From IMG/VR virus record IMGVR_UViG_3300043426_000117, positions 1 through 27,322 of that record: a stretch of DNA of 27,322 bases. One strand, written 5' to 3'. Within the stretch, counting starts at the first letter, position 1; the number at the start of each line of letters is the position of its first letter. Positions 2,361 to 27,322 of this stretch are shown here, piece after piece. The translations under genes and the position numbers were made by a program. Under the pieces are notes generated by a model. It had not been told where the DNA came from, made no database searches, and saw only the letters and a program-made list of their open reading frames with translations. The stretch is from a virus.

Positions 2361-2387
2361 AAAGGCTCCCAAGCGGGAGCCTTTTTT
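2361..2387. terminator. Bidirectional intrinsic terminator between convergent units
   Basis: GGCTCCC (2364-2370) and GGGAGCC (2375-2381) form a perfect 7-bp stem with an AAGC loop. An A-run lies on the left and TTTTTT on the right, so it works as a Rho-independent terminator in both directions. It lies between the stop of the last rightward gene (2356) and the end of the leftward virion operon (2386), and can serve both. Confidence 0.9.
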
Positions 2388-4485: not shown

Positions 4486-4488
4486 ACA

Positions 4489-5505: not shown

Positions 5506-5506
5506 G

Positions 5507-8787: not shown

Positions 8788-8788
8788 A

Positions 8789-9457: not shown

Positions 9458-9462
9458 ATTTG

Positions 9463-9938: not shown

Positions 9939-10092
9939 TGATTTTGACTCCGCCAAGTGCGTCCTTGATAATGTTTGCAGAATTGAAATCATTGTCTTTC
10001 CGCTTTTCCAGCTCATCAGCGCCAGCGCGCATCATATTGATCAGGAGGTTGCTGCCGACTTTGATGAGGATGCCAATGAGTAAGCTTTTCAT
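9919..10092 (-). CDS. 57-residue protein, hydrophobic N-terminus
   Basis: A short gene with ATG at 10092, preceded by AAGGG with 8-base spacing, and stopping 20 bases inside the next gene. The product starts MKSLLIGILIKVGSNLLINM, hydrophobic enough to associate with membrane, and continues in a polar helix (RAGADELEKRKDNDFNSANI). It lies between the main tail fibre and the TM/coiled-coil protein. No family was recognised; a membrane or lysis-accessory role is possible from context only. Confidence 0.65.
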   Translation of the reverse strand: MKSLLIGILIKVGSNLLINMMRAGADELEKRKDNDFNSANIIKDALGGVKINGRADQ

Positions 10093-10126
10093 ATTATTAA
10101 CCCTTATGTAAATTGATCATCCCGTG

Positions 10127-10153
10127 TTAAACAAAGAGCGTTCCTCTATCCAT
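10127..10153 (-). CDS. Candidate 8-codon mini-ORF with strong Shine-Dalgarno
   Basis: AAGGAG with a 5-base spacer precedes ATG 10153. The frame reads MDRGTLFV and stops. It lies in the gap between the fibre gene stop and the 57-residue gene. It may be a translated leader peptide, a remnant of a lost gene, or chance. The sequence ACATAAGG(A/G) is repeated ahead of this ATG and the next one. Confidence 0.35.
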   Translation of the reverse strand: MDRGTLFV

Positions 10154-10162
10154 TGATTCTCC

Positions 10163-11626
10163 TTATGTCAACTCTGCATTAAATCCGCGGAAGTCAGTTG
10201 TTTGTGATGATGCAAGATAAGATGCCTGTCCTGCTGCCCCAGTAATATTCTGGTTAATCATTATATTTGTGCCGCGTAGCGTTACTGTTAGTGCCCCTGT
10301 ACCATCCACACCACTGCCTGAAATTAATAACCATGTTCCGCCTTCAATTGTTGGTGTTGCTCTCATTTGCACAGGGACACCAATTGATACAATGCCTACA
10401 GATGATGTGCACATTCCACCAGCAGCTAGTGTGCCACTTACACCATCTTGCCATCCTATGCCAAGGAGATACCGCTGGCATAAAGAAAGCTCAACTTGAT
10501 ATGGCCGATGTTCAAAATCTGTCTTGGTAGTTCCAGTTTCCAATTGTACTTCAGTTAACTGGAATGTATCACTAACACTAGTGCCCCATGATACCTGATT
10601 TGTTCCTGCTAAGAATACGCCATCGAGCATTGTGCCAAGTGTAGCAGTACGCAAATCAGCACCTGCTGCAAGAGTCCAGCACAACTCCATTCCTAGGCCA
10701 TTTTCCCATTCACTAACAAATCCAATTGGCAGGGCTGGCATAGCAATTTCTACAGACTTCCATATATTAGCAGGAAGTGTAAATCCAACAACTATAGTTT
10801 TAGAACGGTTGCCATTCCGCATAGCAAAGCTGTATGTTCCAGCTTTAGATGTTTTAGCAGTAAAGCTTATGATGAATGGTTTTGCTGTTAACTCACGTAC
10901 ATCATACCCCTCCATTAAATAACCAATGCGCATGTGCTTAGAAGCTATATTTGCTTCCACAGGCGTTGTAAGCGCAACACTCAGGCATTTTCTTATGCCT
11001 TTGTTAGGATAGTTAATATCTAAAACTGCCTGATTAATTGTACCACGGGCTGCTGTGCTATTGCCACATGCAAATCTATCTATTTTACCCTCAGTTGATG
11101 CTATAGGTATAGGCATGCTTGATCCGCGTTGTGATACCTCCATCTTACCATTGTGTATCTTATTCTTAAAACTTGATATTGATGTCAAACCAATTTCTGC
11201 TGGAGACCATGACACAGGAGCAGACCCATCAAACTGTTTACTAACTCCTGCAATTGTAATTGCAACAGGGGTTTTGAGCTTAGTGGCAGATGCAGCATTT
11301 TCAGTTTTAAGAAGAATTGATTTAAAGAATTCGCTGTTGATTGTGCCAAACACTTGTGCTGAGCCAGTGAGTGATAGAGGTGCAGAATTCTCTGTATAAA
11401 TGCCATCGACAAGAGTTGCAATGACAGTGGTCCGCTCCATTACTCGGCCGGTGATTGTGCCAATCCCACATTCTTTCTTATTGCCATCAACAATGGTATA
11501 GTAAACTTCACAATCACCAAGATAGATGAATGTGGAGAACCCAGGGACTGCACCACCAAGATTGATTGGGCCTTGGCCTACAGTCGAGGTATTTTCACCA
11601 AGCCAGTTTCCATATTTAAAAGTCAT
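10163..11626 (-). CDS. Putative tail fibre protein, 487 residues
   Basis: The N-terminus (FKYGNWLGENTSTVGQGPIN, then GGAVPGFSTF) is the attachment type found in phage fibres. A middle stretch of about residues 90-140 resembles the AT-rich shaft (LKTPVAITIAGVSKQFDGSA). The C-terminal two thirds contain the signatures common to tail fibre receptor domains: NKIHNGKMEVSQRGSS near 155-170, a jelly-roll-like domain, then QLETGTTKTDFEHRPYQVEL and LCQRY. The end (TDFRGFNAELT) is the usual tip-like closing strand. It probably recognises surface glycan; no depolymerase motif was seen. ATG 11626 overlaps the adaptor stop (ATGA), with GAGG upstream. Confidence 0.8.
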   Translation of the reverse strand: MTFKYGNWLGENTSTVGQGPINLGGAVPGFSTFIYLGDCEVYYTIVDGNKKECGIGTITGRVMERTTVIATLVDGIYTENSAPLSLTGSAQVFGTINSEFFKSILLKTENAASATKLKTPVAITIAGVSKQFDGSAPVSWSPAEIGLTSISSFKNKIHNGKMEVSQRGSSMPIPIASTEGKIDRFACGNSTAARGTINQAVLDINYPNKGIRKCLSVALTTPVEANIASKHMRIGYLMEGYDVRELTAKPFIISFTAKTSKAGTYSFAMRNGNRSKTIVVGFTLPANIWKSVEIAMPALPIGFVSEWENGLGMELCWTLAAGADLRTATLGTMLDGVFLAGTNQVSWGTSVSDTFQLTEVQLETGTTKTDFEHRPYQVELSLCQRYLLGIGWQDGVSGTLAAGGMCTSSVGIVSIGVPVQMRATPTIEGGTWLLISGSGVDGTGALTVTLRGTNIMINQNITGAAGQASYLASSQTTDFRGFNAELT

Positions 11627-12255
11627 TCTCCAATCCTCATGATCATGGTGTTGCCAGCCCAGCGTTTGTCAGCGTCATTCAATTTGAGTTCTTCAATTGA
11701 ACGAGTCATGCGAGTATCCCAAAGTTGGGATGCTTCATAGTTTTTGACAAACAGTTCTATCTCAGCACAAATACCAGACAAGTATATATCAGGGTAATCA
11801 ATTGACATCCAGTTATATTGATTGCTAGCACTAAGTGAAGGTACTTTTCTGTAAAACACCATTTCAATAGTACCATCTGGGCTAGCAGTTGGGTGCAATT
11901 GAATCTGGTTGTTCAGGATTGTATAAAACTGTCCGCTGGAGACTCCGCTTGCCTGCATGTCAGAAAGCTGCTCTGGCGTGACATAATCAACTGGGATGAC
12001 GCCTGATGATGGCTCATCAACCTCACCAGTATTGAGGTGGATAAAGCGCATGCCATTGTATTCAGGAGGCAGAGTATAGAACTCTTTACCAGCAACAGTC
12101 TTTGTATAAACACGATTAGTCTGCTCTGATATCTTGAGTACTCTGTTGATTCTTGACTCTGCCATCACAATGAAAGTGCCCATGTTTACAGAGACTTCAT
12201 TGTCAAGACGATCACTGTATGCTTTTGCAGCAGCGACAATTTCATTGTAATCCAT
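11623..12255 (-). CDS. Head-tail adaptor protein (SU10-type)
   Basis: This 210-residue protein opens MDYNEIVAAAKAYSDRLDNE and has FIVMAESRINRVLK, YTLPPEYNGMRFIHLN, FYTILNNQIQLHP, MVFYRKVPSLSASNQYNWM and YPDIYLSGICAEIELFVKNY. This order is that of the phage adaptor family that links the portal to the tail nozzle in short-tailed phages such as SU10. The preceding genes (125-residue unknown, SU10-type capsid) agree. ATG 12255 follows AAGGTGAG. It acts in the virion neck. Confidence 0.75.
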   Translation of the reverse strand: MDYNEIVAAAKAYSDRLDNEVSVNMGTFIVMAESRINRVLKISEQTNRVYTKTVAGKEFYTLPPEYNGMRFIHLNTGEVDEPSSGVIPVDYVTPEQLSDMQASGVSSGQFYTILNNQIQLHPTASPDGTIEMVFYRKVPSLSASNQYNWMSIDYPDIYLSGICAEIELFVKNYEASQLWDTRMTRSIEELKLNDADKRWAGNTMIMRIGE

Positions 12256-12256
12256 A

Positions 12257-12628
12257 TTAGCTCACCTTTGTTTGAAGCGGCTTCTTCATAACTCCACCAA
12301 GCTTTCCAGGGCGAACCTTCAAGCATTGGTTCTCTGGCTTATCAAGCCAGACACGGCGTTCATTGTCTGTGCTGTTGAACCAATCAAAGCCAAGCTTCTT
12401 CCAATGCTCAATCATGACAAGCGGAATGCGAGCCACCAGATGCAAACCATCACTATCAGAATACTTTGGCTTATTGTGTTCATTGTACATGAACTTGTTG
12501 ACATCAATGTTCTTTTCAACATCCTGAAGACGACGGATAGTCAGTTCATCAGTCAGATGATTGTACCAGTACTCTTCAGTGATGCCGGAAAACTCATCAT
12601 AGTGGGATGCCATAAATTGCATAGACAT
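12257..12628 (-). CDS. Conserved-type head-region protein of unknown function
   Basis: The gene lies between capsid and adaptor. Two starts are possible. ATG 12634 sits only 3 bases from AAGGA, while ATG 12628 has 9-base spacing, so 12628 is preferred. The 123-residue product contains YDEFSGITEEYWYNHLTDELTIRRLQDVE, then VARIPLVMIEHWKKLGFDWF and a basic end with LKVRPGKLGG. A similar small protein often sits beside the capsid gene in podoviruses with this head type, from memory, but its role is not known. It could be a minor head protein. The capsid gene terminator-like hairpin lies just upstream of it. Confidence 0.7.
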   Translation of the reverse strand: MSMQFMASHYDEFSGITEEYWYNHLTDELTIRRLQDVEKNIDVNKFMYNEHNKPKYSDSDGLHLVARIPLVMIEHWKKLGFDWFNSTDNERRVWLDKPENQCLKVRPGKLGGVMKKPLQTKVS

Positions 12629-12646
12629 GGTCATAATTCCTTACAC

Positions 12647-12668
12647 AAAAGGGGCCATTGCTGGCCCC
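12647..12668 (-). terminator. Hairpin terminator or attenuator after the capsid gene
   Basis: On the minus strand, GGGGCC (12668-12663) and GGCCCC (12656-12651) form a 6-bp G+C stem with a 6-base loop, followed by TTTT (12650-12647). It lies between the major capsid stop and the next start. As the operon continues, it is probably a partial terminator that raises capsid mRNA relative to tail mRNA, or a 3'-end protecting hairpin. Confidence 0.75.
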
Positions 12669-12687
12669 TGCTATTAGTTAGTTGTTA

Positions 12688-13656
12688 TTACGGAGTCAGC
12701 GCAGTGATCACATAGTGAGCCTGCGGGCTACCAACCTTGAGGGTGGTCTCCATGATGATCTGCTTGGATGCGCCATCACCAGTCTTCGCCAGGTCTTCAG
12801 AGAAGACAGGACGGAAGTCATCGATGGACACATAATCCTTGTCGATCAACAGCACTTCACCAGCAGTAGCGTAGCGGTCAGGAACCGCAGTTACTGTGTG
12901 GAAGTCACCGTCATACACATCAATGGAAGCAGTCAGCTTCTTGTCATCAATGGAAGCATAACGGGTATTGGAACCAGAGAAGGTGGAGAAGATACCACGC
13001 TGCTTGGCACCCATCAGGGCTGAGATGTTCTCAGAGCCACCGGACTGGTTCCACATGGCAGACAGAGCAGCTTTGAAGATGGTTTCATCAAAATCTCGGT
13101 TGGTGCCAGGGGTGTACACATTGGTACCATTGCCAGCACCAGCAGTACCAGTTGCGCCCAGGCTGGTGGTGCCTGCTCTCATGTAGGCTTGCAGAGAAGC
13201 CATTTCACGGGCCACAGTTTCAGAGCCAGCCTTGGAAACTTGCAGACCAGAGCCAACACATGCAAACTCCAGATCACGCTTCATTTCCTTCATGCGGCGA
13301 GCAACCTGATAAGCCATTTCAGACTTGATGCCGCCACCCTTGTCTGCCTTCTCCTGAGAGCCAGACACAACAGCAAACTTGCTGAAGATTTGGCAGTAGT
13401 TGCCCAGACGAACGCGATCACCAGGCTTGGTAGCAACTGCTACGTTGCCTTCAATCTGTGCATTCTTGGCCGGAGCACCCAGAGAGTCAGTCAGCCATTC
13501 ATGCTTGACTGCACTAGCTTTCCCCTTCTTTGCCATAGATACAAACGGGGTTTCAGTTGGAGAAATGTCGTACAGAACATCAGACAGATCTTCACGGTTA
13601 CCACCAGTGCCAATCGGTTCAGAGTAGGTGGATTTTGAGCCAGCAATAATTGCCAT
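12688..13656 (-). CDS. Major capsid protein (SU10 / DUF5309-like, HK97 fold)
   Basis: This 322-residue protein begins SEPIGTGGNREDLSDVLYDISPTETPFVSM and continues KASAVKHEWLTDSLGAPAKN. This is the signature N-terminal arm of the SU10-type major capsid family (DUF5309-like), which has an HK97 fold. Further matches are QEKADKGGGIKSEMAYQVARRMKEMKRDLEF, TNRDFDETIFKAALSAMW, and DVYDGDFHTVTAVPDRY with VLLIDKDYVSIDDFRPV near the end. Codon use is more biased than in the neighbours (more CCT/GCC/ATC-type codons), as expected for a highly expressed gene. AAGGA precedes the ATG, and the scaffold gene ends 12 bases upstream. Confidence 0.9.
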   Translation of the reverse strand: MAIIAGSKSTYSEPIGTGGNREDLSDVLYDISPTETPFVSMAKKGKASAVKHEWLTDSLGAPAKNAQIEGNVAVATKPGDRVRLGNYCQIFSKFAVVSGSQEKADKGGGIKSEMAYQVARRMKEMKRDLEFACVGSGLQVSKAGSETVAREMASLQAYMRAGTTSLGATGTAGAGNGTNVYTPGTNRDFDETIFKAALSAMWNQSGGSENISALMGAKQRGIFSTFSGSNTRYASIDDKKLTASIDVYDGDFHTVTAVPDRYATAGEVLLIDKDYVSIDDFRPVFSEDLAKTGDGASKQIIMETTLKVGSPQAHYVITALTP

Positions 13657-13668
13657 AGTATGTTTTCC

Positions 13669-14769
13669 TTACATGCGGTCAATGAGAGCGGCTGCGACAG
13701 CATCTACCGAGCCACCTGATTTTCTGATCTGTTCCTTCTGTTGCTTAACAGCACGTGCTTTCTGCAGAGAAGGACGATCACCAACAACGCCTGGTTTAAC
13801 AAATTTGGGGATAGGCTTTTCAGCCTTCTTGGTTTGCACCTTGCTAGTTGCACTGTGGAATTGCTTTGCATCACGGATCAAACGCATCAATCGTGCATCC
13901 AAGTTGTTAGCAACTTCCTGATCAGCAAAACCATACTTCTCGCGCAAGAATGCACCAATTTCACCAAACTCTTTTGCCATTACTGATTGGTCAGACCAAG
14001 CAGGATTATCTTGCACCATCTTGGCCAATTCTTGGCCAACACGTGTTTGATTTTGCGCTTGCTGTTCAGCTTGCTGTTCAGCTTTAATGCGCTCACCTTC
14101 TTGGCCACCAAGGGCCTTGATTTGGTTGATATAATTGAGCCTGCTTTGGAACTGCTGCTGGAGAGCAGCCCATTCACCTGGCTCAGTCATACGGAGACCA
14201 TTCCAGTCAACCCCTTCAAAATCAGCCATAAGTTGCTTTTCAGCAACATCAGTGAGCTTGTTGAGTGACTCCAACCGCGTCAGAAGCTCTTGAGACGCCT
14301 GCTGCTTGGTAGCAGCAAAAGTCTTACGCTCCTCTTCCAGTGCAATAGACTTGTTGTTAACATGCCCCTGCAGCTGGTAGGATTTAACAAGCTCACCCAT
14401 CGGAACCTTTTGGACTTGCCCGTCAATGATGGCATTGAAGACAACTTTGCCTTCTGCGTCATATTCGAGTTTGTCCTCATCAATCCCAAGCAGGCTTGCT
14501 ACGGTGATTTCGCCATCATCAGCATCATCACCATCCAGCTCAGCGTCTTCACCAGCATCAGCGTCGTCAGCTTCAGGTGGACGTTTACCGTCGCCATTCA
14601 CTACTGCGTCATCTTGGTCGTCCGCATTGCCATCATCCGGCTGTCGCTCAGGGAACAGTGCAGCTTGGATGCGGGATTCAATATCTTGCGCTCCGCTTGC
14701 TGCACCATCGTCACCAGCCGGTGCCATGTAGCGCATCATGAGAGTAGCAGCCTTACTGAATCTAAACAT
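13669..14769 (-). CDS. Scaffold / head assembly protein
   Basis: This 366-residue protein has an acidic, disordered N-terminal third (many D, E, G, A at residues 18-90), a small beta-like module (ITVASLLGIDEDKLEYDAEG), and long Gln/Ala/Lys-rich helices (KTFAATKQQASQELLTRLES and onward) with a basic C-terminal end (QKARAVKQQKEQIRKSGGS). This layout, sitting between portal and major capsid, is that of a scaffolding protein that guides procapsid assembly. GGAG lies 8 bases before ATG 14769, within the end of the 90-residue gene. No protease motif is seen. Confidence 0.8.
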   Translation of the reverse strand: MFRFSKAATLMMRYMAPAGDDGAASGAQDIESRIQAALFPERQPDDGNADDQDDAVVNGDGKRPPEADDADAGEDAELDGDDADDGEITVASLLGIDEDKLEYDAEGKVVFNAIIDGQVQKVPMGELVKSYQLQGHVNNKSIALEEERKTFAATKQQASQELLTRLESLNKLTDVAEKQLMADFEGVDWNGLRMTEPGEWAALQQQFQSRLNYINQIKALGGQEGERIKAEQQAEQQAQNQTRVGQELAKMVQDNPAWSDQSVMAKEFGEIGAFLREKYGFADQEVANNLDARLMRLIRDAKQFHSATSKVQTKKAEKPIPKFVKPGVVGDRPSLQKARAVKQQKEQIRKSGGSVDAVAAALIDRM

Positions 14770-14772
14770 ATC

Positions 14773-15045
14773 TTATTCTCCAGATTGGTTGAGCTCACTT
14801 TGTGCAACTTTGAGTTCATCTCGAAAGTGCAAAAACGAGTTCTTCAGACTTCTCAGTGCAGTTTGTTGCATCTTGATAATCCTGAGTTGCTCAGTATCCT
14901 GAGCAGGCACACCACAAAATGCTTCAAACAATTTCTGCTCCTGTTGCAAGATGAAAGGTTCAATGTGTGCTTCATACACATCAACCTGTCGTCTTGCAAC
15001 TGCGATTCTGTTTTCTAATGAATTAATCCTTTCTGGCGTTAGCAT
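14773..15045 (-). CDS. 90-residue helical protein between portal and scaffold
   Basis: The protein is helical throughout (NSLENRIAVARRQVDVYEAH, and KMQQTALRSLKNSFLHFRDE), with coiled-coil character and no membrane segment. It starts 23 bases before the portal stop and ends 3 bases before the scaffold start, so it is translated between the two. Its last codons contain the Shine-Dalgarno of the scaffold gene. No family was recognised; a portal- or scaffold-associated assembly role is an inference from position. Confidence 0.7.
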   Translation of the reverse strand: MLTPERINSLENRIAVARRQVDVYEAHIEPFILQQEQKLFEAFCGVPAQDTEQLRIIKMQQTALRSLKNSFLHFRDELKVAQSELNQSGE

Positions 15046-17149
15046 CTTTCTCTCCAGATGTTAGCTGTACCATTGCAATTTCATACTGCTGTTGCAACTG
15101 GTCATACTTGAATTGCAAATCTTCAGTATGATGTACATCCTTGAGCTGAAGTTGAGCTTCAGAAAGCTGTTGCTCCAACTCTGCAATCTTATTCTCACTC
15201 TGCCCTTTGATTGTTTCAAGAGCAGTTTTAAGTCGTTCAATCTTGCCTTTAAGCAGAACAGACTCTTGTGCAGCTTGAGCTTTGGTTTGCTCAGCCTGAG
15301 CAATTGTTGTCTGAGCTTCAAGAAGTGCCTGCTGTTCTTTGATCTCTTTCTCTTGCGCTTGCTGGCTTGAAGCAGCCACTTGCTGCTTATTCTCTTGGCC
15401 CTCTGGAGAGTCAGGATCAAGGAAGTACGGCACAGCACCTGGCATACCAGAAGCCTTGATAAAGTCATTGAGTGCAGCAAACACATTCTTTTCAGTAACA
15501 ATTGCTTGACCAGGCTGAGCAAGAATTTGGCTTTGGAATGTAAGCACTTGCATAAGAGCAGCTGCTTGTTCCTTGCGGTTGCCTGAGCCAGTGCCAACAC
15601 GAACAGTTGTTGAGTTGCGAGCAACCCAGCGTGATGGGTTGACCTTGGCCCAACCACCTCTAAATTCATAGTCCTCAACAACATCCTTGTTGGAGATCAA
15701 CAGATCACGAATGCGGATGCAAAGAGGCTTAATGCCAGTCTCTGCAAACACACGTACCATGAGCCCAACAAGCTCTTCCTTTTGGGTAAGCAGCTTGCCA
15801 AGACCTTCTGAGCCAACACGGTCACCCATTGCACTATCGCTGATGCTGCCATCAGGTGATACCCCAACACGACCTGCACGGACTTGGTCCATATAGCTCA
15901 TCATGTTGTAACTGTCACTGCTAAGCGGGTTGGTAGGGAATGGTCTTACTGCATCCATATTGTTTACACGAACCACTCCGCCTGCGCGGGCATCAAGCAA
16001 GTCATCCAGATTGACTTGGCCTTCAAGTGCCAGAGTACGCTGGTTGTTCTGCAGGTACATGTTATCAAGCATGTTGCGCCACAGAGCAGTCTTGATGTCC
16101 TGAATCTCTTTCAGTCTGTCATAGATGGACAGGCCGAAGAATTTGTGAGACATGATGATAGCAGTCACAGAGATATATGGGCACTCATCAATCTCTTCAA
16201 CAGACAGAATATGGACAGGCTCATCATCACCAATGTAGGTGATCTTGACGCGCTCTGCAATGCCATCATCATTCAAGTCCAGGAACATGTAGGCTTCAGT
16301 AACATCCAGCAGCTCATTCTCAGGAGAAACTGACCTTCCGCTGGATTGGGCGTATGTAGACTCGCCTTGGACTTCAAAGCGATATGTTCTGCGATTATCA
16401 GCCTCAATGTCATCGCTGACACTGACAGCATAGACTTCATCCCTGTCATATCCACTCTCAACTAGGTCAGAGCGGGTGAGTGATTGAGTTTCACTAATGA
16501 AGCGGCACTCAGACAGGTCGATGCTGTTGTGGCGTCCATAGACACGCATATTCTCTGGTGCAACAGGCTTGACCACAACGCTGCCTGATAACTCAACGCG
16601 TCTGATGTTGACGTCATGGATTTCGATGCCGGACTCATCAATTGATGTGGTCTGTCCAACAAGCTCAACATTATCCTCAGCCAGAATCATCTGCAGCTCA
16701 GGAGTGGTGATGCCAATATATGACTCTACTGCCACACGGTTGGTCTTGTTGTAGTAGACCTTGATGAAGCCATTCTTTTGCAGCAAAGCATCTTTGACAA
16801 GAGTGTGAATTGCCAAGAAGCCATTGTTGTGCTTCATCAACACATCATAAACAAAGCGTGATTCCAGTTGAGCCTGAGTGCTATCATTTGGGCCTACAGG
16901 GTCAAAAGTCACAACTTCATTGTTCTGAGTGAATGCCTTGACAATCTCAGGGAGAATCCACTCAATGGAGTCTGCAACATCAGTTGACACCACAGCAGAG
17001 CGACCAGCCTTGGTATTTCCCTTGTCACCAAGGTAATACTTCAGTGCCTTCTGACGCTCTGCATCAATAGCATCATTAGACGAACCAGAAGACTGGTCAA
17101 TCTCTTCAGCTATGATTTTCTTGATGTCGTCATCAGTGTACTTATCCAT
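15023..17149 (-). CDS. Portal protein
   Basis: At 708 residues this is close to P22-type portals (about 725). The N-terminus (KIIAEEIDQSSGSSNDAIDAERQKALKYYL) and the following AVVSTDVADSIEWILPEIVKAF match podovirus portals, as do HEYYNKT-like FIKVYYNKTNRVA, VAPENMRVYGRHN, and SDSAMGDRVGSEGLGKLLTQKEEL near residues 425-450. The last 120 residues are a long Gln/Lys/Glu-rich coiled coil (QEKEIKEQQALLEAQTTIAQ), as in the P22 portal barrel. The gene follows TerL within one base. The portal forms the 12-fold DNA channel and docks the terminase and the adaptor. Confidence 0.9.
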   Translation of the reverse strand: MDKYTDDDIKKIIAEEIDQSSGSSNDAIDAERQKALKYYLGDKGNTKAGRSAVVSTDVADSIEWILPEIVKAFTQNNEVVTFDPVGPNDSTQAQLESRFVYDVLMKHNNGFLAIHTLVKDALLQKNGFIKVYYNKTNRVAVESYIGITTPELQMILAEDNVELVGQTTSIDESGIEIHDVNIRRVELSGSVVVKPVAPENMRVYGRHNSIDLSECRFISETQSLTRSDLVESGYDRDEVYAVSVSDDIEADNRRTYRFEVQGESTYAQSSGRSVSPENELLDVTEAYMFLDLNDDGIAERVKITYIGDDEPVHILSVEEIDECPYISVTAIIMSHKFFGLSIYDRLKEIQDIKTALWRNMLDNMYLQNNQRTLALEGQVNLDDLLDARAGGVVRVNNMDAVRPFPTNPLSSDSYNMMSYMDQVRAGRVGVSPDGSISDSAMGDRVGSEGLGKLLTQKEELVGLMVRVFAETGIKPLCIRIRDLLISNKDVVEDYEFRGGWAKVNPSRWVARNSTTVRVGTGSGNRKEQAAALMQVLTFQSQILAQPGQAIVTEKNVFAALNDFIKASGMPGAVPYFLDPDSPEGQENKQQVAASSQQAQEKEIKEQQALLEAQTTIAQAEQTKAQAAQESVLLKGKIERLKTALETIKGQSENKIAELEQQLSEAQLQLKDVHHTEDLQFKYDQLQQQYEIAMVQLTSGEKDANARKD

Positions 17150-17150
17150 C

Positions 17151-18551
17151 TTAGATTATCCCATCATTGTTGTAGTTGATCTTGGTTGGTGAAGAGTTGC
17201 TTGAGATCAAGCTAGTGCCTTCACCAAGACTAAGCATCAAGTACTGGAAGCCATCTGCTGGGTGAGAGTATCTGTTCTTATCAGGAACATCATGATAACG
17301 CTCATCACCTGCAACTTTAATTCGTCGGTATTTGTATCCGCCTGAAAGTGCCTTTCTCAGAACCTTGCACTTAGGGCCTACCAAGAAGCCAGGGTTGCCA
17401 GCTGAGTCCAAACGCTTCATGGGAGCAGCTGCTGCGCCTATACGAATAACAGGGTCGTTTGTCCAAGCAGGGGCAGCTGGAATCTTCTCAGCAGCCAGCA
17501 TCATAAACGGAGTTGATGAATCAGACTGAGCACGGAAGTCACCAGCTGGGTCACCAGTAAATCTAAAGTTGTAGCCTTGATACTCACTATTGATCTTCTG
17601 TTTGAGCAGCCGACCAAAAGTGCGAGCATCCATGTCTTCCGCTACCAACTCATCAAAGGCTATGATCTGGTCACTTGCTGTACGAACACCAAAGATAGCA
17701 GCTGGAGTTAAACCAAAGTCAATGCCAACATGAATGGTAATAGACTTTGGAACAACAATGTCTTTGTCAGTGTGATGGAAGTCATCTTTGTACTCAGGCC
17801 AGACAGGCTTGCCATCTTGTACAAACCCATATTGACCATGAACATACACGTTGATCCACTCCTGATCTTTACCCGCTTGCATCTTCTGATAATAGCCATC
17901 TGGCAAGTTCTTGATGTTCTCCGCTTCAGGAGACAGACCAGAGGGCTGATAGAAAATCTCATAACCTTCAGGCTTCTGTTCTTCAAACAACTTGTAGTAC
18001 CAGTGATCAGAATCAGGCGGGTTGGTGTCCATCAAAAGGCAGTAGCGAGTTGCTCCGCCCTTGCCATCAACCTTTCTTGGATAGCGACCAAGACGACCAA
18101 TGAGCATATCCATAATTGCTTTTGGAATCTCACGGGCCTCATTGAGCCATCCGCCTGTGACTTCGAGTGACAGCAGCTTCTTGATATCATCAGGCTTATC
18201 AAGAGCACGAAACAGAAACTCTGCTTTGACTATGGTTCCATCTGGAAGAGCTTGTTTGAATGTGAACTTCAAGTCTTGCTTGAGGAACACTCCAGTGTGC
18301 TCAGGAACCCAGTCAAAGAAGGTTTGTATTGTTGTATCCATGAGTTCACGGTAAGTGTTGCGTACAACTACCCAACGTGACTCACGGACATTAGTGCCAG
18401 GAGTAGGCTGCTGGACAAAGCAACTGATGCGCATCATCTCAGCAACACATGCCACAGACTTGCCTGATCCAATTGGGCCAAAGAGTGAGCGGACAAATGC
18501 ATCACTCTTGTGGAACTTGGCCATGGTTGGGGAGGCAATGTAGGTGGTCAT
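17151..18551 (-). CDS. terL: Terminase large subunit
   Basis: The 466-residue protein carries the ATPase and nuclease of the packaging motor. Walker A is GPIGSGKS (residues 25-32). The Walker B and catalytic acid lie at GGWLNEARE (133-141). The coupling motif is MDTNPP (174-179). RNase H-like nuclease acids are D278 (HVGIDFGLTP), D334 (FTGDPAGDF) and D433 (YSHPADGF). ATG 18551 lacks a strong Shine-Dalgarno; a second ATG at 18524 would still keep Walker A. It follows the 37-residue gene and directly precedes the portal gene. Confidence 0.95.
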   Translation of the reverse strand: MTTYIASPTMAKFHKSDAFVRSLFGPIGSGKSVACVAEMMRISCFVQQPTPGTNVRESRWVVVRNTYRELMDTTIQTFFDWVPEHTGVFLKQDLKFTFKQALPDGTIVKAEFLFRALDKPDDIKKLLSLEVTGGWLNEAREIPKAIMDMLIGRLGRYPRKVDGKGGATRYCLLMDTNPPDSDHWYYKLFEEQKPEGYEIFYQPSGLSPEAENIKNLPDGYYQKMQAGKDQEWINVYVHGQYGFVQDGKPVWPEYKDDFHHTDKDIVVPKSITIHVGIDFGLTPAAIFGVRTASDQIIAFDELVAEDMDARTFGRLLKQKINSEYQGYNFRFTGDPAGDFRAQSDSSTPFMMLAAEKIPAAPAWTNDPVIRIGAAAAPMKRLDSAGNPGFLVGPKCKVLRKALSGGYKYRRIKVAGDERYHDVPDKNRYSHPADGFQYLMLSLGEGTSLISSNSSPTKINYNNDGII

Positions 18552-18560
18552 GATGATATG

Positions 18561-18674
18561 TTATTCCATAGTGGTTGTAACCTTGGCAGGTTTAGACTTG
18601 TTATCACCAATCAGAGAGTTGCACAACATAGCAACCAGCCCAAATGCGAGCACAGCAATCACGAGTCCTTTCAT
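18561..18674 (-). CDS. 37-residue membrane protein
   Basis: A short gene between the two terminase genes. ATG 18674 follows GAAGGTG. The product is one hydrophobic segment (MKGLVIAVLAFGLVAMLC) followed by a short Lys/Thr-rich tail. A cysteine ends the hydrophobic stretch, but the residues before it (AML) are not a standard lipobox. Small membrane proteins are sometimes lysis-related, but no function can be assigned. Confidence 0.65.
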   Translation of the reverse strand: MKGLVIAVLAFGLVAMLCNSLIGDNKSKPAKVTTTME

Positions 18675-18687
18675 GATGGCACCTTCT

Positions 18688-19062
18688 TTATGACTTCTGT
18701 TCTTCCGCTGGGTAAACAATCTGGAACTGGAATCCGCCTGCTGATGTCTTCTGTGCAGTCATCGCAAACTCAGAAGAGACTTTGTTCAGGTACTCAATAG
18801 CAGACTGGCCGCCCATTTTTGTCTTCATATGCATGAACAAGTTATCACATGCATCCTTGACACCATTGGCACGACCACGCTTGTGTAGACGCTTGGCAAA
18901 GTCCATTTCCGCTTCTGTGAGCTCGGGTGCTTCAAGCAGGCAACGGTCCAGGCACTCATCAAGCGAAAGAGCAGGTGCACAGATGACAATCTCCACGGCC
19001 AACTCTGGAGTCAGCGTGTCAAATGTATTGCACTTCTCTTTGATAATTCGCTCTAGGTCCAT
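18688..19062 (-). CDS. terS: Putative terminase small subunit
   Basis: This 124-residue protein is the first gene of the virion operon, two genes before TerL. It is helical (ELAVEIVICAPALSLDECLDR, APELTEAEMDFAKRLHKRGR) with a conserved-looking C-terminal half (CDNLFMHMKTKMGGQSAIEY). Small terminase subunits form rings that recognise viral DNA for packaging and normally occupy this place. No explicit DNA-binding motif stands out, so the call is based on position, size and helical make-up. A hairpin leader lies 23 bases upstream. Confidence 0.75.
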   Translation of the reverse strand: MDLERIIKEKCNTFDTLTPELAVEIVICAPALSLDECLDRCLLEAPELTEAEMDFAKRLHKRGRANGVKDACDNLFMHMKTKMGGQSAIEYLNKVSSEFAMTAQKTSAGGFQFQIVYPAEEQKS

Positions 19063-19084
19063 GGTGTTTGTCTCATCTGCTAAA

Positions 19085-19112
19085 AGGCTACCTCTAATAG
19101 AGAGCCTAGCCT
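19085..19112 (-). promoter_or_regulatory. Hairpin in the virion operon leader
   Basis: AGGCTA (19085-19090) pairs with TAGCCT (19107-19112), enclosing CTCT (19092-19095) and AGAG (19099-19102). It lies 23 bases before the small terminase start and would be in the 5' leader of the virion mRNA. It may affect translation or mRNA stability. Confidence 0.45.
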
Positions 19113-19222
19113 AAAAGAGGCCTAAAGTAAAGAGGATAGTTAAAATATTTTGTGTAATGACCTAGCAGATGGAAGATTGAATATAAAATTATAGGATAGA
19201 GGCAACTGGACTGTGTTTTCTG

Positions 19223-19237
19223 AAAAAAAATTTTTTT
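19223..19237. other. A8T7 tract (bent DNA candidate)
   Basis: Eight A followed by seven T form a perfect A-tract/T-tract junction. Such tracts bend DNA and are common at promoters and origins. It sits between the candidate minus-strand TATAAT and a polypurine stretch. Confidence 0.5.
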
Positions 19238-19428
19238 AGGAGGAGGGGTACTGGGTGTGTGAAAAGTGTGATGGAATTGCGTGAGCAGGACACCTCGGCC
19301 TTGGACTGCTGCATCACCCCCTCCCCCACCCATCCACCGCTTGCCCTGACATGCTGGCCATAGCCCTCCACACCTCTACACTTCCAGACGTCTATCCCTC
19401 TGGCCGTCTAGCCTTCCACCTGCGCGCG

Positions 19429-19438
19429 TATATAAAGG
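19429..19438 (+). promoter_or_regulatory. TATATAAAGG motif, candidate phage promoter element
   Basis: TATATAAAGG lies in the control region upstream of the early genes. The same 10-mer recurs at 24323-24332 and a variant, TATATAAATA, at 25651-25660, all in intergenic DNA with rightward genes downstream. Repetition at gene-start regions is the only evidence. Confidence 0.35.
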
Positions 19439-19685
19439 AAGGAAAGCGGATATAACTATCAGATATAAGTATCCCACTGCTTATTCCTAACTAATCTTTA
19501 CTTCTATCCTAACTGGACTATAGTTATCTCACAGGTCGGGAATAGACCCAGATAGGGGGGAACCTCTATAAGTAGCTCTCTCCTAGCGTAAGAAGTAGGG
19601 GCGACCTTAGAAAAGAAGTAGCTTTACTAATATCGGAAAACGTACTACCTTTATAATCGAATACTTTGAACAACTGGAGAATACT

Positions 19686-19964
19686 ATGGACCATATCGGG
19701 TTTCTTTCTATAGAGCTAGAAAACCTTAGCACCTCTTTGATAATAGCTAACAAAGAGGCAGGTGCCACTCTTAATACTAAGGGGCTAGTATTCCTATCTA
19801 TAAGGGATACAGAAGATGTTAATTTAAATAACCCAATAGGTGACGGGATTTATATGGAAGACTTTAGGGGACAGCCTTATGATACCCCAATAGCAGTCTA
19901 TATAGAGGTATATAATGACCCATCTAAATATATGGTCTTTATACCAGTGGAACATAAAGAATAG
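19686..19964 (+). CDS. First early gene, 92 residues, unknown; atypical codon use
   Basis: ATG 19686 follows CTGGAGAATACT, a leader repeated exactly before the next gene. The acidic product (MDHIGFLSIELENLSTSLII ... MVFIPVEHKE) shows alternating beta strands and an FRGQPYDTPIAVYIEVYND segment. No family was recognised. Position as the first rightward gene after the control region suggests an immediate-early host-takeover protein. Codons are unlike those of most neighbours, with many CTA, ATA, TTA and GGG, matching the intergenic islands more than the other genes. This suggests a separate origin or distinct selection. Confidence 0.75.
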   Translation: MDHIGFLSIELENLSTSLIIANKEAGATLNTKGLVFLSIRDTEDVNLNNPIGDGIYMEDFRGQPYDTPIAVYIEVYNDPSKYMVFIPVEHKE

Positions 19965-19974
19965 TCTTTACTTT

Positions 19975-20020
19975 AGGGTAGCATGGGGCTATCCTTTAGT
20001 AAGGGTTAATCCTAGCCCTT
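19975..20020 (+). promoter_or_regulatory. Two hairpins between early genes 1 and 2
   Basis: AGGGTAGC (19975-19982) pairs with GCTATCCT (19988-19995), 8 bp with one G-T. AAGGG (20001-20005) can pair with CCCTT (20016-20020). No T-run follows, so this looks more like an mRNA-processing or stability element than a terminator. CTTTAGGGTAG (19971-19981) is shared exactly with 4342-4352. Confidence 0.45.
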
Positions 20021-20049
20021 AATGACACCATTGAATGCTGGAGAATACT

Positions 20050-20700
20050 ATGAAAACCATCATCGAGCTTATGACTGCCCTTTCCGCTCAATCTAACATT
20101 GGCGAAGGTGCGCGCATCGCTATGGCCTCTGGTCTGGCTGGGGCTAAAGACATCTATCTGGCTTGGGGCAAGGAAAAGGGTGAGTCTCTCAAGACGCTCA
20201 ATGAGCAGTGGAAGGTCATTGAGGATGAGGTCAAGCCAGCCAAGCGGGCAGGTGCCAGTGGGTTCGCAGCCATGTACTATGACTGGCTGGCAGAAGCAAG
20301 TCGCACTGAGCAAGAGGCGCGTGACCTTATCATGGGCAACGAGTCACAGAACGTTCGCAACCACCTCACTCACTATCTCAACATCTGGGCACTTTGCGAG
20401 ACTGTGCGCCAAGGTCAGAAGGTGGCCCGCTCTCTTTCCGCTGAGAAAGTTGAGGGTGAGCCAGCTGAGAAGGCACCCAAGATCAAACAGGCAAAAGAGC
20501 CAGAGTTTGTCTATGACGCTGCGCACCCCTTTGCCTGTGAGAAGTCAGCAGCGGAAACCTTGCTGCGCCAAAAGAATCTTGTGGCCAAAAAGCGTGACCT
20601 TGCCACCCTGTTGGTGGGTGCTGAGATGGAAGGCCCAAGCCAAGAAGGGTTCAAGGTTATCCTTCGCAACACCAAGAAAAGCCTCAAGATTGAGGAATAA
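20050..20700 (+). CDS. Early helical protein, 216 residues, unknown
   Basis: ATG 20050 was chosen over 20035 because CTGGAG sits 7 bases before it and the same 15-base CTGGAGAATACTATG starts the previous gene. The product is helical and charged (IGEGARIAMASGLAGAKDIY, then YDWLAEASRTEQEARDLIMG). A Lys/Pro/Glu linker (VEGEPAEKAPKIKQAKEPEF) leads to a basic C-terminal part ending KKSLKIEE. No enzyme motif was seen. Codon use is of the common type for this genome and the G+C is high, suggesting strong expression. It may be a nucleic acid- or host-binding early protein; this is not shown by sequence. Confidence 0.8.
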   Translation: MKTIIELMTALSAQSNIGEGARIAMASGLAGAKDIYLAWGKEKGESLKTLNEQWKVIEDEVKPAKRAGASGFAAMYYDWLAEASRTEQEARDLIMGNESQNVRNHLTHYLNIWALCETVRQGQKVARSLSAEKVEGEPAEKAPKIKQAKEPEFVYDAAHPFACEKSAAETLLRQKNLVAKKRDLATLLVGAEMEGPSQEGFKVILRNTKKSLKIEE

Positions 20701-20713
20701 GGGGTGGCCAGTA

Positions 20714-20761
20714 GGGGGATAAGGGCTTGAAATAGGGGGTTTATAGAGGGATATTAGAGGG
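20714..20761 (+). other. Plus-strand G-quadruplex candidate
   Basis: Five G-tracts of 5, 3, 5, 3 and 3 bases (20714-20718, 20723-20725, 20735-20739, 20748-20750, 20759-20761) are separated by loops of 4, 9, 8 and 8 bases. Some loops exceed the usual 7, so stability is uncertain. Confidence 0.45.
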
Positions 20762-20769
20762 ATAGTAGT

Positions 20770-20817
20770 AAGGTAAGTATATAATCTATATAGAGTTTTT
20801 ATATACTTTCTTACCTT
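20770..20817. repeat. 15-bp AT-rich inverted repeat with a 4-base bulge
   Basis: AAGGTAAGTATATAA (20770-20784) is matched by TTATATA (20799-20805) and CTTACCTT (20810-20817), with CTTT as a bulge and a 14-base loop. It lies exactly between the G-rich and C-rich blocks, which would extend it into a longer imperfect hairpin. Confidence 0.7.
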
Positions 20818-20819
20818 CT

Positions 20820-20850
20820 CCCCTAACCCCCTACTTTCCCCCGTTCCCCC
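20820..20850 (-). other. Minus-strand canonical G-quadruplex motif
   Basis: On the minus strand there are G-tracts of 5, 5, 5 and 4 bases separated by loops AAC, AAAGTA and TTA. This satisfies the G3+N1-7 rule comfortably. It would form when this strand is single-stranded, for example during leftward transcription or replication. Confidence 0.7.
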
Positions 20851-21119
20851 TTGGGACTCTTTAGACACCCTCTCCCCCCCTCTCTCTCTCTCTCTAGTAG
20901 GGGGATATTTTAGGGGTCTATCCGGTTTTTTAAGGAAAAACCCCTTATAAAACCTATACTTAATAAATCCCTATTAACTTTTTTGTAGGGGTATAGCTAG
21001 TTTCGAGTAGGGGAATAGGGGGATAATAGATTTCTAGGGTAAAAAAAACCTTATAAATCAATAACATCACCCTGAAATAGAATCCCCCTACTATATTAGA
21101 CTCGATAGGATATTATATT

Positions 21120-21395
21120 ATGACCAGCAAGACATATGAGTTAAGCACAATGCCCAGCCCTGAGAACCCAACAGGAATCATCGCAAGCGGATTAAGTGAG
21201 GCACAGGTGTATGATTGCCTCCGCTCGCAGTTTGCTAATTTCAATACATTCAGCGAATCACTGCGGTATCGGCTTGGGATGCACGGATCACATGGCACAG
21301 CACGTTTTATGGTTGAGCAGTCTAGCACATTCAAAGCAGGTTATGCAGCACCACAATCTGCTCCAGCATACGCATTTGTAACACGTGAGAAATAA
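21120..21395 (+). CDS. 91-residue unknown early protein
   Basis: ATG 21120 follows AGGA with 9-base spacing; ATG 21150 is an alternative. The product (MTSKTYELSTMPSPENPTGI, then LSEAQVYDCLRSQFANFNTF and a Gly/His/Ser-rich end) has one clear helix and no recognised motif. It is the first gene after the non-coding block at 20701-21119. Confidence 0.6.
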   Translation: MTSKTYELSTMPSPENPTGIIASGLSEAQVYDCLRSQFANFNTFSESLRYRLGMHGSHGTARFMVEQSSTFKAGYAAPQSAPAYAFVTREK

Positions 21396-22085: not shown

Positions 22086-22207
22086 GTCAGCTCACAGAAG
22101 ATCAGATAATTGACCTGATCTATTATCTGGCAGTGAATTGTTCATTGTCAGAATATAAGATAGCCATCAAGCGGATAGTCGCTTCCCAAGCAAGGAGAAA
22201 ATCATGA
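22070..22207 (+). CDS. 45-residue basic helical protein
   Basis: ATG 22070 follows AAAGGTG with 5-base spacing. The product (MRKPISQLTEDQIIDLIYYL ... IVASQARRKS) has two helices and a basic end, the outline of a small DNA-binding or adaptor protein. There is no direct evidence for either. Its stop overlaps the next start (ATGA). Confidence 0.6.
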   Translation: MRKPISQLTEDQIIDLIYYLAVNCSLSEYKIAIKRIVASQARRKS

Positions 22208-22398
22208 GTACACAATATCGCGCTGTACCATACTATATCAAGCGCACTTCTGTAAACAGTGAAATGCGCTACATTGTGTTTGTTGATGGTAGGCAACCTA
22301 CTATCATTCGTCGTGAGGGCAAATACTTTTTTGTTCACGGCAACTTCCATCGCACATTGCGTGATGCAATCATCTATGTAGTATATGGGGTGCGATAA
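22204..22398 (+). CDS. 64-residue unknown early protein
   Basis: AAGGAG precedes ATG 22204. The product is beta-rich and basic (YYIKRTSVNSEMRYIVFVDG, then REGKYFFVHGNFHRTLRDAI). No motif was recognised; a small nucleic acid- or host protein-binding role is only a guess from charge. Confidence 0.65.
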   Translation: MSTQYRAVPYYIKRTSVNSEMRYIVFVDGRQPTIIRREGKYFFVHGNFHRTLRDAIIYVVYGVR

Positions 22399-22399
22399 G

Positions 22400-22507
22400 A
22401 TGGCATATATGGGTGAGAATTGGCTTTGGCACATTGAGTACAATGACTTGCGCAGAGACCTGCTCAAGTTCCTTATAACCAGACTGGAGAGTGAATTAAA
22501 TGACTAG
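22400..22507 (+). CDS. 35-residue small protein
   Basis: ATG 22400 follows GGGGTG with 8-base spacing and the stop overlaps the next gene by 8 bases. The product (MAYMGENWLWHIEYNDLRRD, then a helix LLKFLITRLESELND) is an amphipathic helix with an aromatic head. No family recognised. Confidence 0.55.
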   Translation: MAYMGENWLWHIEYNDLRRDLLKFLITRLESELND

Positions 22508-24799: not shown

Positions 24800-25333
24800 A
24801 TGGCAAAGTTCGTGGTGACTGCCGGTCACTCTAATTCAGACCCAGGTGCAGTGGCCAATGGTGTCACAGAATCAGAGATTGCTGAAGATATGCGCAACAT
24901 GATCGCTAGCAAGCTGAGAAGCAGAGGCCATGAAGTGATCACTGATGGAACAGGAAGTTACAACCAGCCGCTTAATGAAGCAATCAAGCTTGTTAAGCAG
25001 GGCAATCTCGCAATTGAGATTCACTGCAATGCATCTGGTTCAGCTTCCGCTACTGGTGTTGAGACAATCTCACTGCCAGCCCACAAGACACTTTCTCAGC
25101 GGATCAGCCAAGCAATTGCTGGTGTGACCAAAGATAAGGTGCGCGGTGACAGAGGTTGGATTGACCAATCACAGTCCCATCGCGGGAAACTGGGGTATGT
25201 CAACGCAGGCGGGCTGATCATTGAAATGTTCTTCCTGACCAACAAACAAGCATTGGAAAACTATCAATCTGTTAAGTGGATGGTTGCCAGTGCAATCACT
25301 GGTGAACTGATCCGCTGTGTTGGAGAAAAGTGA
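24800..25333 (+). CDS. N-acetylmuramoyl-L-alanine amidase (endolysin)
   Basis: The 177-residue product is an Amidase_3-type, zinc-dependent enzyme that cuts the amide bond between MurNAc and the stem peptide. Likely zinc ligands are H10 (TAGHSNSDPGA), E24 or E26 (VTESEIAED) and H75 (IEIHCNAS). The catalytic Glu is E142 in LIIEMFFLTN. There is no signal peptide and no cell wall-binding domain, so it probably depends on a holin for release, as in Gram-negative phages. AAGGAG lies 7 bases before the ATG. It is encoded in the early rightward unit rather than with the virion genes, which is unusual for lysis timing. Confidence 0.9.
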   Translation: MAKFVVTAGHSNSDPGAVANGVTESEIAEDMRNMIASKLRSRGHEVITDGTGSYNQPLNEAIKLVKQGNLAIEIHCNASGSASATGVETISLPAHKTLSQRISQAIAGVTKDKVRGDRGWIDQSQSHRGKLGYVNAGGLIIEMFFLTNKQALENYQSVKWMVASAITGELIRCVGEK

Positions 25334-25336
25334 AAA

Positions 25337-25363
25337 CTAGGCAGCCATTAATTTGGCTGCTAG
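25337..25363 (+). promoter_or_regulatory. Hairpin after the amidase gene
   Basis: CTA plus GCAGCC (25337-25346) pairs with GGCTGC plus TAG (25355-25363), a 9-bp stem with one bulged G. It lies 4 bases after the amidase stop and 15 before the next ATG. No T-run follows, so it is likely an mRNA-stability or processing element. Confidence 0.45.
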
Positions 25364-25751: not shown

Positions 25752-27322
25752 ATGTTTCACATTTCAATGCAAGCCTCAGAGAAAGCCAATAGCAAACTTG
25801 AGTTATATCAACTGACGCTTGAACAGCTTGGTCAGGCAACAAAGACAGTTGAACAAGGTGGTAAGCATGGCAAAGGCTTTATCAGAGGGAAACTAAAAGG
25901 GCCAGAGCGACGCAATGAATACTTAGAATACTCAAGGCTGTTGATCATTGATGCAGATGGTGGCATCGATGGTAAGCCGACACCAAAAGCTGAACACTGT
26001 CATCAAGCACTGAAAGACTTAGGTTACAGCCATGTACTGTATACCACTCACTCACACACTGATGAGTTCCACAAGTATCGCGTGGTCATTGAGTTGAGTG
26101 AGGATATTCAAGAGCACGAATTACATGCCAATATGAGCCAGCTTCTCAAAGAGTTGTTTGCTCAAGGCGTCCACCTCAAATATGTATCTGAGATGGATAC
26201 TTGGTCGCAGATTTGGTTCTTCCCAAGACGCGACAATCCAGATGATGGGCAGTTTATTCATTTGGAGTATTATGATGGCAGTGAGTTTGACACAATCCAT
26301 GTTGACAAGGAAGATGCTGAGAAGGTTGTACATTCCAGAGAGCGTAGCAGTGACGAGTCTGATGTTGTTAAGACATTGGATGAAATGTTTGAAAGCATAC
26401 GTACTGGGAAGGAGTTCCACACAAGCCTTCGAAATATCAGCTATCAGCTTGCCAAAGATGGTGTGTCAGAAGCAATTGTAAGAAGCACGCTGACAAGCGT
26501 CATGGAGTCATCTGTTGAAGCCGGTTCAGAGCGATGGACAGAGCGGATGAAAGACCTCCCGCGTTTGATCAAGGGTGGATTTGACCGTGTACAGAAAGAG
26601 CTTGAATCAGAAACAAATTTCAGCATCAAAGAGTTGTCGCAGAGCATGGGCAATTACACGCCGCCGCCAGTTCCGCCTGGCAGGATTGGACGGGCAATTG
26701 AACAGTGCATGGCGACAATGGCACGTCCTCAGATTGAGTTTGCGTTTCCAATGATCATTGGCTCCATAGCAGCAATATGTGGTGCCAAGTTTAATGGGTA
26801 CACAAACGAGTACACTGGTCTGAATGTCAATATGACAGTTGTAGCAGACACAGGCTTTGGTAAAGGTCAGATAAGCAAGTTTTACAACAGCTTGTTTATA
26901 GGTGGGTTGGGTGGTAAGATAATCAACCTATCAGGTGGTGAAGGCGCCATGTCTTTTATTGGCACCAATAACTACACTGCACCAAAACCATTACATCAGG
27001 ACTTGATGAAGGGCAGAAGTAAGATTGTATGTATGCAGGAAGCTGGCATCATGCTTGGTGCCAAGTCAGGTAATGCTGATGAGCTTTCCGCTTATGTCAT
27101 GGAAAACTATGTGAATAGTGCTCACAATCAATTTTCTTCATCACGTAGCTACTCAAGTGAGGAGAATAGCTTGCGCCCATTCAGAGCGCCTGCTATGTCG
27201 CTGGTTCTGGAGTCAACAGAGAAGTCTATTGCTGACGCACTCAAGAGCATGAACGCAGTAGAGTCTGGATACATACCGCGCCAGACAATGTTCAAGGTTG
27301 TTGGGAAGCCACGTGTCAAACG
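25752..27322 (+). CDS. Primase-helicase fusion (AEP-like plus DUF3987-like), 3' truncated
   Basis: ATG 25752 follows GAGG with 7-base spacing; the frame is open to the window end (523 residues visible). The N-terminal domain has DAD at 67-69 (LLIIDADGG), THSH at 99-102, YRVV around 109-112, and MDTWSQIWFFPRR, the order of the archaeo-eukaryotic primase motifs DxD, sxH and a later acid. From about residue 300 a helicase-like domain begins, with a Walker A-type ADTGFGKGQ at 365-373 (K371) and a later CMQEAGIMLGAKSG. The final part recalls DUF3987-type replication proteins. Such fusions start replication in plasmids and phages. The helicase end is missing from the window. Confidence 0.75.
   Translation, partial: MFHISMQASEKANSKLELYQLTLEQLGQATKTVEQGGKHGKGFIRGKLKGPERRNEYLEYSRLLIIDADGGIDGKPTPKAEHCHQALKDLGYSHVLYTTHSHTDEFHKYRVVIELSEDIQEHELHANMSQLLKELFAQGVHLKYVSEMDTWSQIWFFPRRDNPDDGQFIHLEYYDGSEFDTIHVDKEDAEKVVHSRERSSDESDVVKTLDEMFESIRTGKEFHTSLRNISYQLAKDGVSEAIVRSTLTSVMESSVEAGSERWTERMKDLPRLIKGGFDRVQKELESETNFSIKELSQSMGNYTPPPVPPGRIGRAIEQCMATMARPQIEFAFPMIIGSIAAICGAKFNGYTNEYTGLNVNMTVVADTGFGKGQISKFYNSLFIGGLGGKIINLSGGEGAMSFIGTNNYTAPKPLHQDLMKGRSKIVCMQEAGIMLGAKSGNADELSAYVMENYVNSAHNQFSSSRSYSSEENSLRPFRAPAMSLVLESTEKSIADALKSMNAVESGYIPRQTMFKVVGKPRVK

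Follow-up and report, generated by a model that had tools for sequence, protein, structure and literature searches.

A non-coding block of 419 bases at positions 20701-21119 of a podovirus-like phage genome fragment is probably an iteron-type replication origin, as judged from its sequence. The fragment is a 27,322-base record from IMG/VR and is referred to as the window. The block lies between orf01 (20050-20700) and an ORF at 21120-21395. Its G-runs are copies of a TAGGGGGATA-type word, arranged in helically phased 11-bp arrays that are opposed across an AT-rich stretch. The place and design of the block are conserved in related genomes, the repeat words vary among the phages, and a 21-bp motif is present. 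In the proposed mechanism, a phage initiator would bind the phased 11-bp repeats that flank the AT-rich core, while a host protein of the IHF/HU type would bind the 21-bp motif or motifs, bend the DNA and bring the arrays together. The strain would open the core, where the primase-helicase would be loaded and replication would start.

The original prediction described the block as a candidate origin or control block with opposed G-quadruplex motifs. The conserved place and design and, in L025, L036, L015 and L020, the position of such elements beside the primase-helicase gene support the origin or control-block reading; however, its G-quadruplex part did not hold, a canonical G-quadruplex being found in two of the five blocks compared. 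If the origin assignment is right, the Ss1/VA-RY-3 group gains an origin that can be tested, and origins in other phages could be sought with the same tag. Since the word varies among relatives while the place and design stay constant, swapping the words could identify the initiator.

Genes beside the block

The gene directions of the window diverge. Structural genes (portal, scaffold, major head protein, terminase) occupy the minus strand at 2386-19062, and early and replication genes (RNase H, endolysin and the start of the primase-helicase) run along the plus strand from 19686. The 5' part of the primase-helicase gene, a homolog of SS1_45 (25752-27320, plus strand), is truncated by the contig end. 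Its product gave PHROG DNA primase/helicase matches, and full-length homologs match DUF3987. By its neighbourhood, the primase-helicase is a candidate to use, or to be loaded at, the putative origin.

The product of orf01 (plus strand), a homolog of SS1_01, has 216 residues, is mostly helical, and its gene adjoins the element in all five genomes of the clade. The start is probably at 20050 (GGAGAATACTATG) rather than at the longest-ORF start at 20035. By neighbourhood alone, orf01 is an initiator candidate, as is the primase-helicase. The AlphaFold model, built with 10 sequences, had a mean pLDDT of 74 and a pTM of 0.33. Foldseek gave no match at E <= 0.001, the best VIA-align hit (Z 5.9) was to a designed helical repeat, and neither Pfam nor a PDB sequence search returned a match, although families outside those sets may still fit. 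With no function, fold or family from these five approaches, orf01 was not retained as the initiator, and no other cognate initiator was found.

Repeat arrays and AT-rich core

As the original prediction held, no gene fits in the block: no ORF of at least 80 aa lies wholly inside 20701-21119, and a 107-aa minus-strand ORF (20545-20868) extends into it from the upstream gene. The left iteron array (20710-20775, plus strand) is made of direct repeats, with TAGGGGGATA at 20712, TAGGGGGTTTA at 20733, TAGAGGGATAT at 20744 and TAGAGGGATAG at 20755, at unit spacings of 21, 11 and 11. Left of the core the words are in tandem at 11 bp, right of the core they are reversed, and more copies lie downstream. 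The AT-rich core itself (20764-20819), defined by AT content and arms, is a candidate unwinding element; only a fraction of 0.0001 of contig windows are as rich in AT as the richest 50 bp of the block. The AT-rich inverted repeat of the original prediction is present, but not as the 15-bp repeat described: the arms are 21 nt long (20764-20784/20799-20819) and imperfect, at 76% complementarity. The longest perfect inverted-repeat arm within 60 bp is 10 bp, which 22% of 200 shuffles also reach.

The mirror array (20820-20850, minus strand) consists of CCCC/CCCCC runs. Together with the left array it forms an imperfect hairpin of 144 nt with an RNA z of -2.6. Further along, a polypyrimidine tract, C7(TC)7, was seen at 20874-20894 (plus strand) as reported; a long (TC)n run occupies this position in Cronobacter phage Ss1, and a shorter one in the related genome IMG405. 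The repeat search located further units, AGTAGGGGGATA with TTAGGGG at 20896-20916 and AGTAGGGGAATAGGGGGATAATAG at 21006-21029 (both plus strand), with an additional TAGGGG at 20986. An inverted unit, ATCCCCCTACTA (21082-21093, minus strand), is the exact complement of 20895-20906. The short GGTTTTT/AAAAACC stem noted earlier is visible at 20924-20942, and the repeated AGTAGGGG word is present at five positions (20710, 20896 and 21006 on the plus strand; 20828 and 21085 on the minus strand).

The repeats were compared with shuffled sequence. The block contains 18 words of the TAGGGG/GGGATA type as against 5.8 +/- 2.3 in shuffles, a number reached by none of 2000. No other 6-mer of the contig is as clustered as TAGGGG, which has 10 of its 19 copies within 420 bp (log10 p -12.0), while the best 6-mer cluster in 25 contig shuffles scored -6.6. 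By comparison, the block holds one G-quadruplex where shuffles average 0.15 (p 0.14), a count that is ordinary for its composition. Because the repeats exceed chance and the G-quadruplex count does not, it is the repeats that stand out. Phasing was evaluated by autocorrelation. In the left array of the window, the value peaked among lags 5-25 at lag 11, where it was 0.52; the p for any lag was 0.02. Lag 11 was the best of these lags in six of the seven arrays analysed (the window, Ss1, PVA7, IMG405, L025 and L036), with p for any lag of 0.12-0.13 in L025 and L036; the periodicity of the VA-RY-3 array (lag 10, p 0.32) was not significant.

Conservation in the Ss1/VA-RY-3 clade

The clade set comprised five genomes: the window, Cronobacter phage Ss1, Vibrio phages VA-RY-3 and PVA7, and IMG405, an IMG/VR genome that is the contig of locus L003. 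Between the window and Ss1, VA-RY-3 and IMG405, TerL is 76% and the portal protein 54-56% identical. The PVA7 record (PQ582223.1) carries 98 short CDS with many broken frames, a pattern that resembles sequencing error.

Absence of the region from relatives had been named as part of the grounds for giving up the prediction, and the place and design of the gap proved to be kept in all five genomes. Directly downstream of the SS1_01 homolog, a gap of 375-461 bp is found in Ss1, VA-RY-3, PVA7 and IMG405, as in the window. In all five the most clustered 6-mer of the genome falls in the gap behind orf01; beside the TAGGGG of the window, these words are GGGGAT in Ss1 (7 of 11 copies in the gap) and PVA7 (6 of 8), AGGATA in VA-RY-3 (9 of 26) and TAGGAT in IMG405 (11 of 21). 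The top cluster scores range from -9.5 to -15.2, and the best of 25 shuffles per genome from -6.6 to -7.7. However, a CAG-type repeat in PaMx42 scored -12.6, which shows that strong clustering by itself is no proof. Windows that equal or exceed the block core in AT content make up 0.0000-0.0002 of the genome in four genomes and 0.0029 in IMG405. Position 1 of the Ss1 record (KM058087.1) falls inside the AT core of the element, and this may be an arbitrary cut, an assembly break or a real end.

The search for further relatives covered 27 TerL loci, of which 15 were screened for right-hand ORFs and 8 inspected beyond orf01. The inspected parts of L014, L017, L018 and L022 contained no element; these contigs end early and the result is neutral. 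None of 59 TerL-based candidates among bacterial genomes was confirmed as a relative, and a primase-helicase scan of viral contigs gave seven loci and no further lineage.

In the sister lineages L025 and L036, and likewise in L015 and L020, the gene order is primase-helicase, a gap holding such an element, and RusA; L027 and L037 are near-identical to L025/L036. The gaps of L025 and L036 contain phased GGGTA-type arrays, and copies of the 21-bp motif occur in those of L025, L036 and L020. The L015 gap has an alternating TA core with weak repeats and no motif copy. Repeat clustering is weak in the gaps of both L015 and L020, and the strongest clusters of L020 lie elsewhere. Ss1 and VA-RY-3 have no gap there, since their primase-helicase gene overlaps that of RusA, and the element stands behind orf01. 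An element that has shifted in the genome with its design kept would fit a site serving the whole genome better than the operator of a single gene.

The 21-bp motif

Downstream of the dyad, a 21-bp motif with the consensus CCCTTATAAATCAATGACTTA occurs once or twice in each of the five clade blocks. In eight of nine genomes or loci, the best match falls in the block, a count that is partly circular, these blocks being the source from which the motif was derived. The best matches were 17 of 21 positions in the window, 19 in Ss1, 17 in VA-RY-3, 18 in PVA7, 19 in IMG405, 17 in L025, 18 in L036 and 20 in L020, with none in L015. The best copy of CCCTTATAAATCAATGACTTA in the window lies at 21048-21068 (plus strand), where WATCAA is intact and TTR is not. 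The second-best match of the contig (16/21; 20942-20962, plus strand) is weak and fits the IHF core poorly. As an independent check, viral contigs were searched with a pattern of the motif, which matched exactly at 120 places or more, whereas the reversed pattern of equal composition matched at none. No occurrence in print was found for six exact words of the motif.

The motif contains WATCAANNNNTTR, the IHF consensus (PMC7581858), and it was read as an IHF/HU-type site on that ground. The exact conservation of the CCCTTATA portion exceeds what this consensus requires. The window copies, at 17/21 and 16/21, are imperfect and break the consensus. The IHF-like core is intact in Ss1 and PVA7, one position off in IMG405, and degraded in the window and VA-RY-3. 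In bacterial genomes the motif was found at 52 loci, 13 of them 4-18 bp from a tRNA gene (L164, L171, L176, L179, L192, L193, L197, L199, L203, L205, L209, L213 and L215). An integration site at the 3' end of a tRNA gene would presumably depend on bent DNA. The CCCTTATAAATCAATGACTTACAAGGG of the bacterial copies forms a near-palindrome.

The idea that the motif is the site of a phage-specific initiator was rejected: its copies occur at tRNA ends and near an integrase, which makes an IHF/HU site likelier. Moreover, its presence at bacterial tRNA 3' ends means that the motif alone does not signify an origin. It is conceivable, though somewhat doubtful, that CCCTTATAAATCAATGACTTA is an optimised host IHF/HU site common to the origins of unrelated phages, in which the surrounding repeats are swapped along with the initiator. 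If that were true, the motif would be a sequence tag for finding the origins of many uncultured phages, including that of the window.

Comparison with known origins

In known iteron origins the repeats follow the helical phase, and nucleoid proteins help to open an AT-rich region (PMC5043065). Three features by which such origins are recognised, namely a clustered short word, helical phasing of its copies and AT-rich DNA beside them, are all present in the block. The iteron plasmids P1, RK2, R6K, pSC101 and F likewise combine helix-phased direct repeats, an AT-rich region and help from IHF or HU. Unlike these plasmids, the clade blocks have shorter units placed on both sides of the AT core, and no DnaA box or Rep protein was found with them; across nine blocks, the best resemblance to a DnaA box has two mismatches. 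The lambda origin also has an array of initiator repeats beside an AT-rich region, and bending of the DNA. However, ori-lambda is located within gene O, and dimers of the O protein bind to its repeats, whereas the block is intergenic, its units are about 11 bp and in opposed arrays, and no O homolog was seen. Bruynoghevirus LUZ24, which served as a control genome, shares a related portal protein and a divergent gene layout, but its motif matches do not exceed 15/21 and its repeats form no cluster of this kind (top score -6.7).

The cumulative GC-skew minimum lies 0.6-1.3 kb to the left of the block in three of the four larger genomes. In the plain skew it was at 21072 in Ss1 (block 22107-22481), at 5529 in VA-RY-3 (block 6782-7242) and at 24299 in IMG405 (block 24919-25361); the detrended minimum of VA-RY-3 was at 9039. 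In PVA7 (block 19878-20287), the plain minimum was at 23597 and the detrended one at 18651. In the three genomes where it lies left of the block, the minimum coincides with the point of divergent transcription, so the skew is confounded with gene direction and cannot separate an origin from transcription; the refutation by skew named with the original prediction is therefore not applicable. A literature search, with most subscription papers and the Ss1 genome paper outside its reach, returned no published description of the element or of an origin in the Ss1/VA-RY-3 group.

Alternative explanations

Regulated promoters, too, often have opposed repeats and IHF, and the block precedes the long plus-strand run of early genes throughout the five-genome clade. 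The repeats might then be operators for a phage regulator of the early operon from 21120, with IHF as the architectural partner. This seems unlikely. Seven promoter-like sites were found in 18900-21300 against 3.3 +/- 2.0 in shuffled sequence, none of them conspicuous, and just one, scoring 9 of 12, is in the block. The downstream gene seems to differ between relatives, as ORF 21120-21395 found no homolog in the records of four of them at E<=10 in a search that had no positive control, and in L025 the element precedes RusA instead. A role in packaging or at the genome end would have TerS bind repeats that flank an IHF bend, with the DNA cut nearby, and lambda cosB, with TerS repeats around an IHF site, is a model for it. 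The Ss1 record begins inside the AT core, and in a separate group of phages with DnaA boxes the arrays and motif lie about 126 bp upstream of TerS, where iterons plus IHF could mark packaging. Nevertheless, such a role is improbable for the block. It stands 1.6 kb from the TerS candidate of the window (18688-19062, minus strand) and beyond RusA and orf01 in L025, and a 42-kb IMG contig passes through it unbroken. Unlike cosB, it is not upstream of TerS, a position held by a different conserved non-coding element. That element (19255-19346 in the window; GCGTGAG..GACACC followed by a C-rich tract) is conserved in the five genomes and recognisable in L025, L036, L018, L022 and L015, with GCGTGAG..GACC as the common form. 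It is the better candidate for a genome end or packaging site, and on the minus strand it is G-quadruplex-like at 19317-19346 with loops up to 12.

Because the words on the two sides of the core run in opposite directions, the region can fold into a hairpin of 110-140 nt, which might act as RNA (a terminator or processing site) or as single-stranded DNA. The RNA z was -2.6 to -5.1 in all five clade blocks, and in four of the five, the window excepted, the hairpin is the strongest GC-adjusted fold of the genome. However, any word repeated in opposed arrays is bound to fold, which deprives the hairpin of independent weight, and the further arrays and the 21-bp motif fall outside it. The searches for an intrinsic terminator or a known RNA showed no excess over chance, with four terminator-like sites in 2.4 kb against 2.9 +/- 1.9 by chance and no Rfam family at the gathering score. 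A functional hairpin is very unlikely. Least credible of all is the G-quadruplex switch of the original prediction. The canonical minus-strand G-quadruplex of the window does exist (20820-20850; tracts of 5, 5, 5 and 4, loops of 3, 6 and 3), and PVA7 has one as well. The predicted plus-strand counterpart (20701-20739) is not canonical and fits only with loops up to 12. No canonical G-quadruplex occurs in the Ss1, VA-RY-3 or IMG405 blocks at loops up to 7, nor any in those of VA-RY-3 and IMG405 even when loops may reach 12, since the word repeated there mostly carries two G's; the count in the window's block stays within composition. On sequence grounds, the G-quadruplex follows from the word: four or five G's can give one and mostly two cannot. 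The G-quadruplexes are a side effect of the repeats, and the G-quadruplex as functional unit was dropped. G-quadruplex calls in phage DNA should therefore be read with caution, as they can be by-products of G-rich binding-site arrays.

The motif outside the clade

In viral contigs, opposed arrays of one 6-mer, with at least two copies on each side, surround the motif at 24 of 101 distinct sites among the matches listed, as compared with 55 of 2400 random positions. Sixteen of the 24 belong to one group of phages that are related to each other but not to the clade, and eight lie outside it. In this group (L044, L046, L057, L060, L068, L073, L076, L090, L102, L113, L120, L129 and L149 among its loci), the motif lies between opposed arrays whose word varies by phage (GGGTCA, GGTGCA, TAGGGG/GGGGCA, GGTATG and TAGGTA), as is the case for the block; the likeness was noted for L044, L046, L057, L068, L120 and others. 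Unlike the block, the group has a second motif copy at about +82, a small terminase gene adjoining downstream, and a Prim-Pol/AAA_25 gene nearby. In 13 of its 16 loci a DnaA box without mismatch follows the motif at +107 to +109, a proportion that describes and does not test, the loci having been picked by eye. At the 87 other motif sites among the matches listed, no perfect DnaA box was found within 250 bp. This DnaA-box group is a second, clearer candidate family of origins.

Among named phages, the motif of Redjac lies in a long unannotated gap whose next annotated gene is a DNA primase, and that of FtMidnight in a similar gap with the primase three genes on. VCPH has the motif in an unannotated gap, and 230 bp around it include three DnaA boxes when TTATACACA is accepted as one, and Dobby, FV3, Vibrio phage 1.251.O, pEa_SNUABM_11 and Soft also have it in unannotated gaps. 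These eight of eight were pre-selected mostly for unannotated hits and serve as illustration, not as a count. A match that was excluded from the evidence (E 0.1, 16/21) places a motif copy with TAGGT-type repeats after the RNA polymerase gene of Pantoea phage Nifs112 (L011 6859-6879), and the gap after the RNA polymerase gene is the place of the T7 primary origin.
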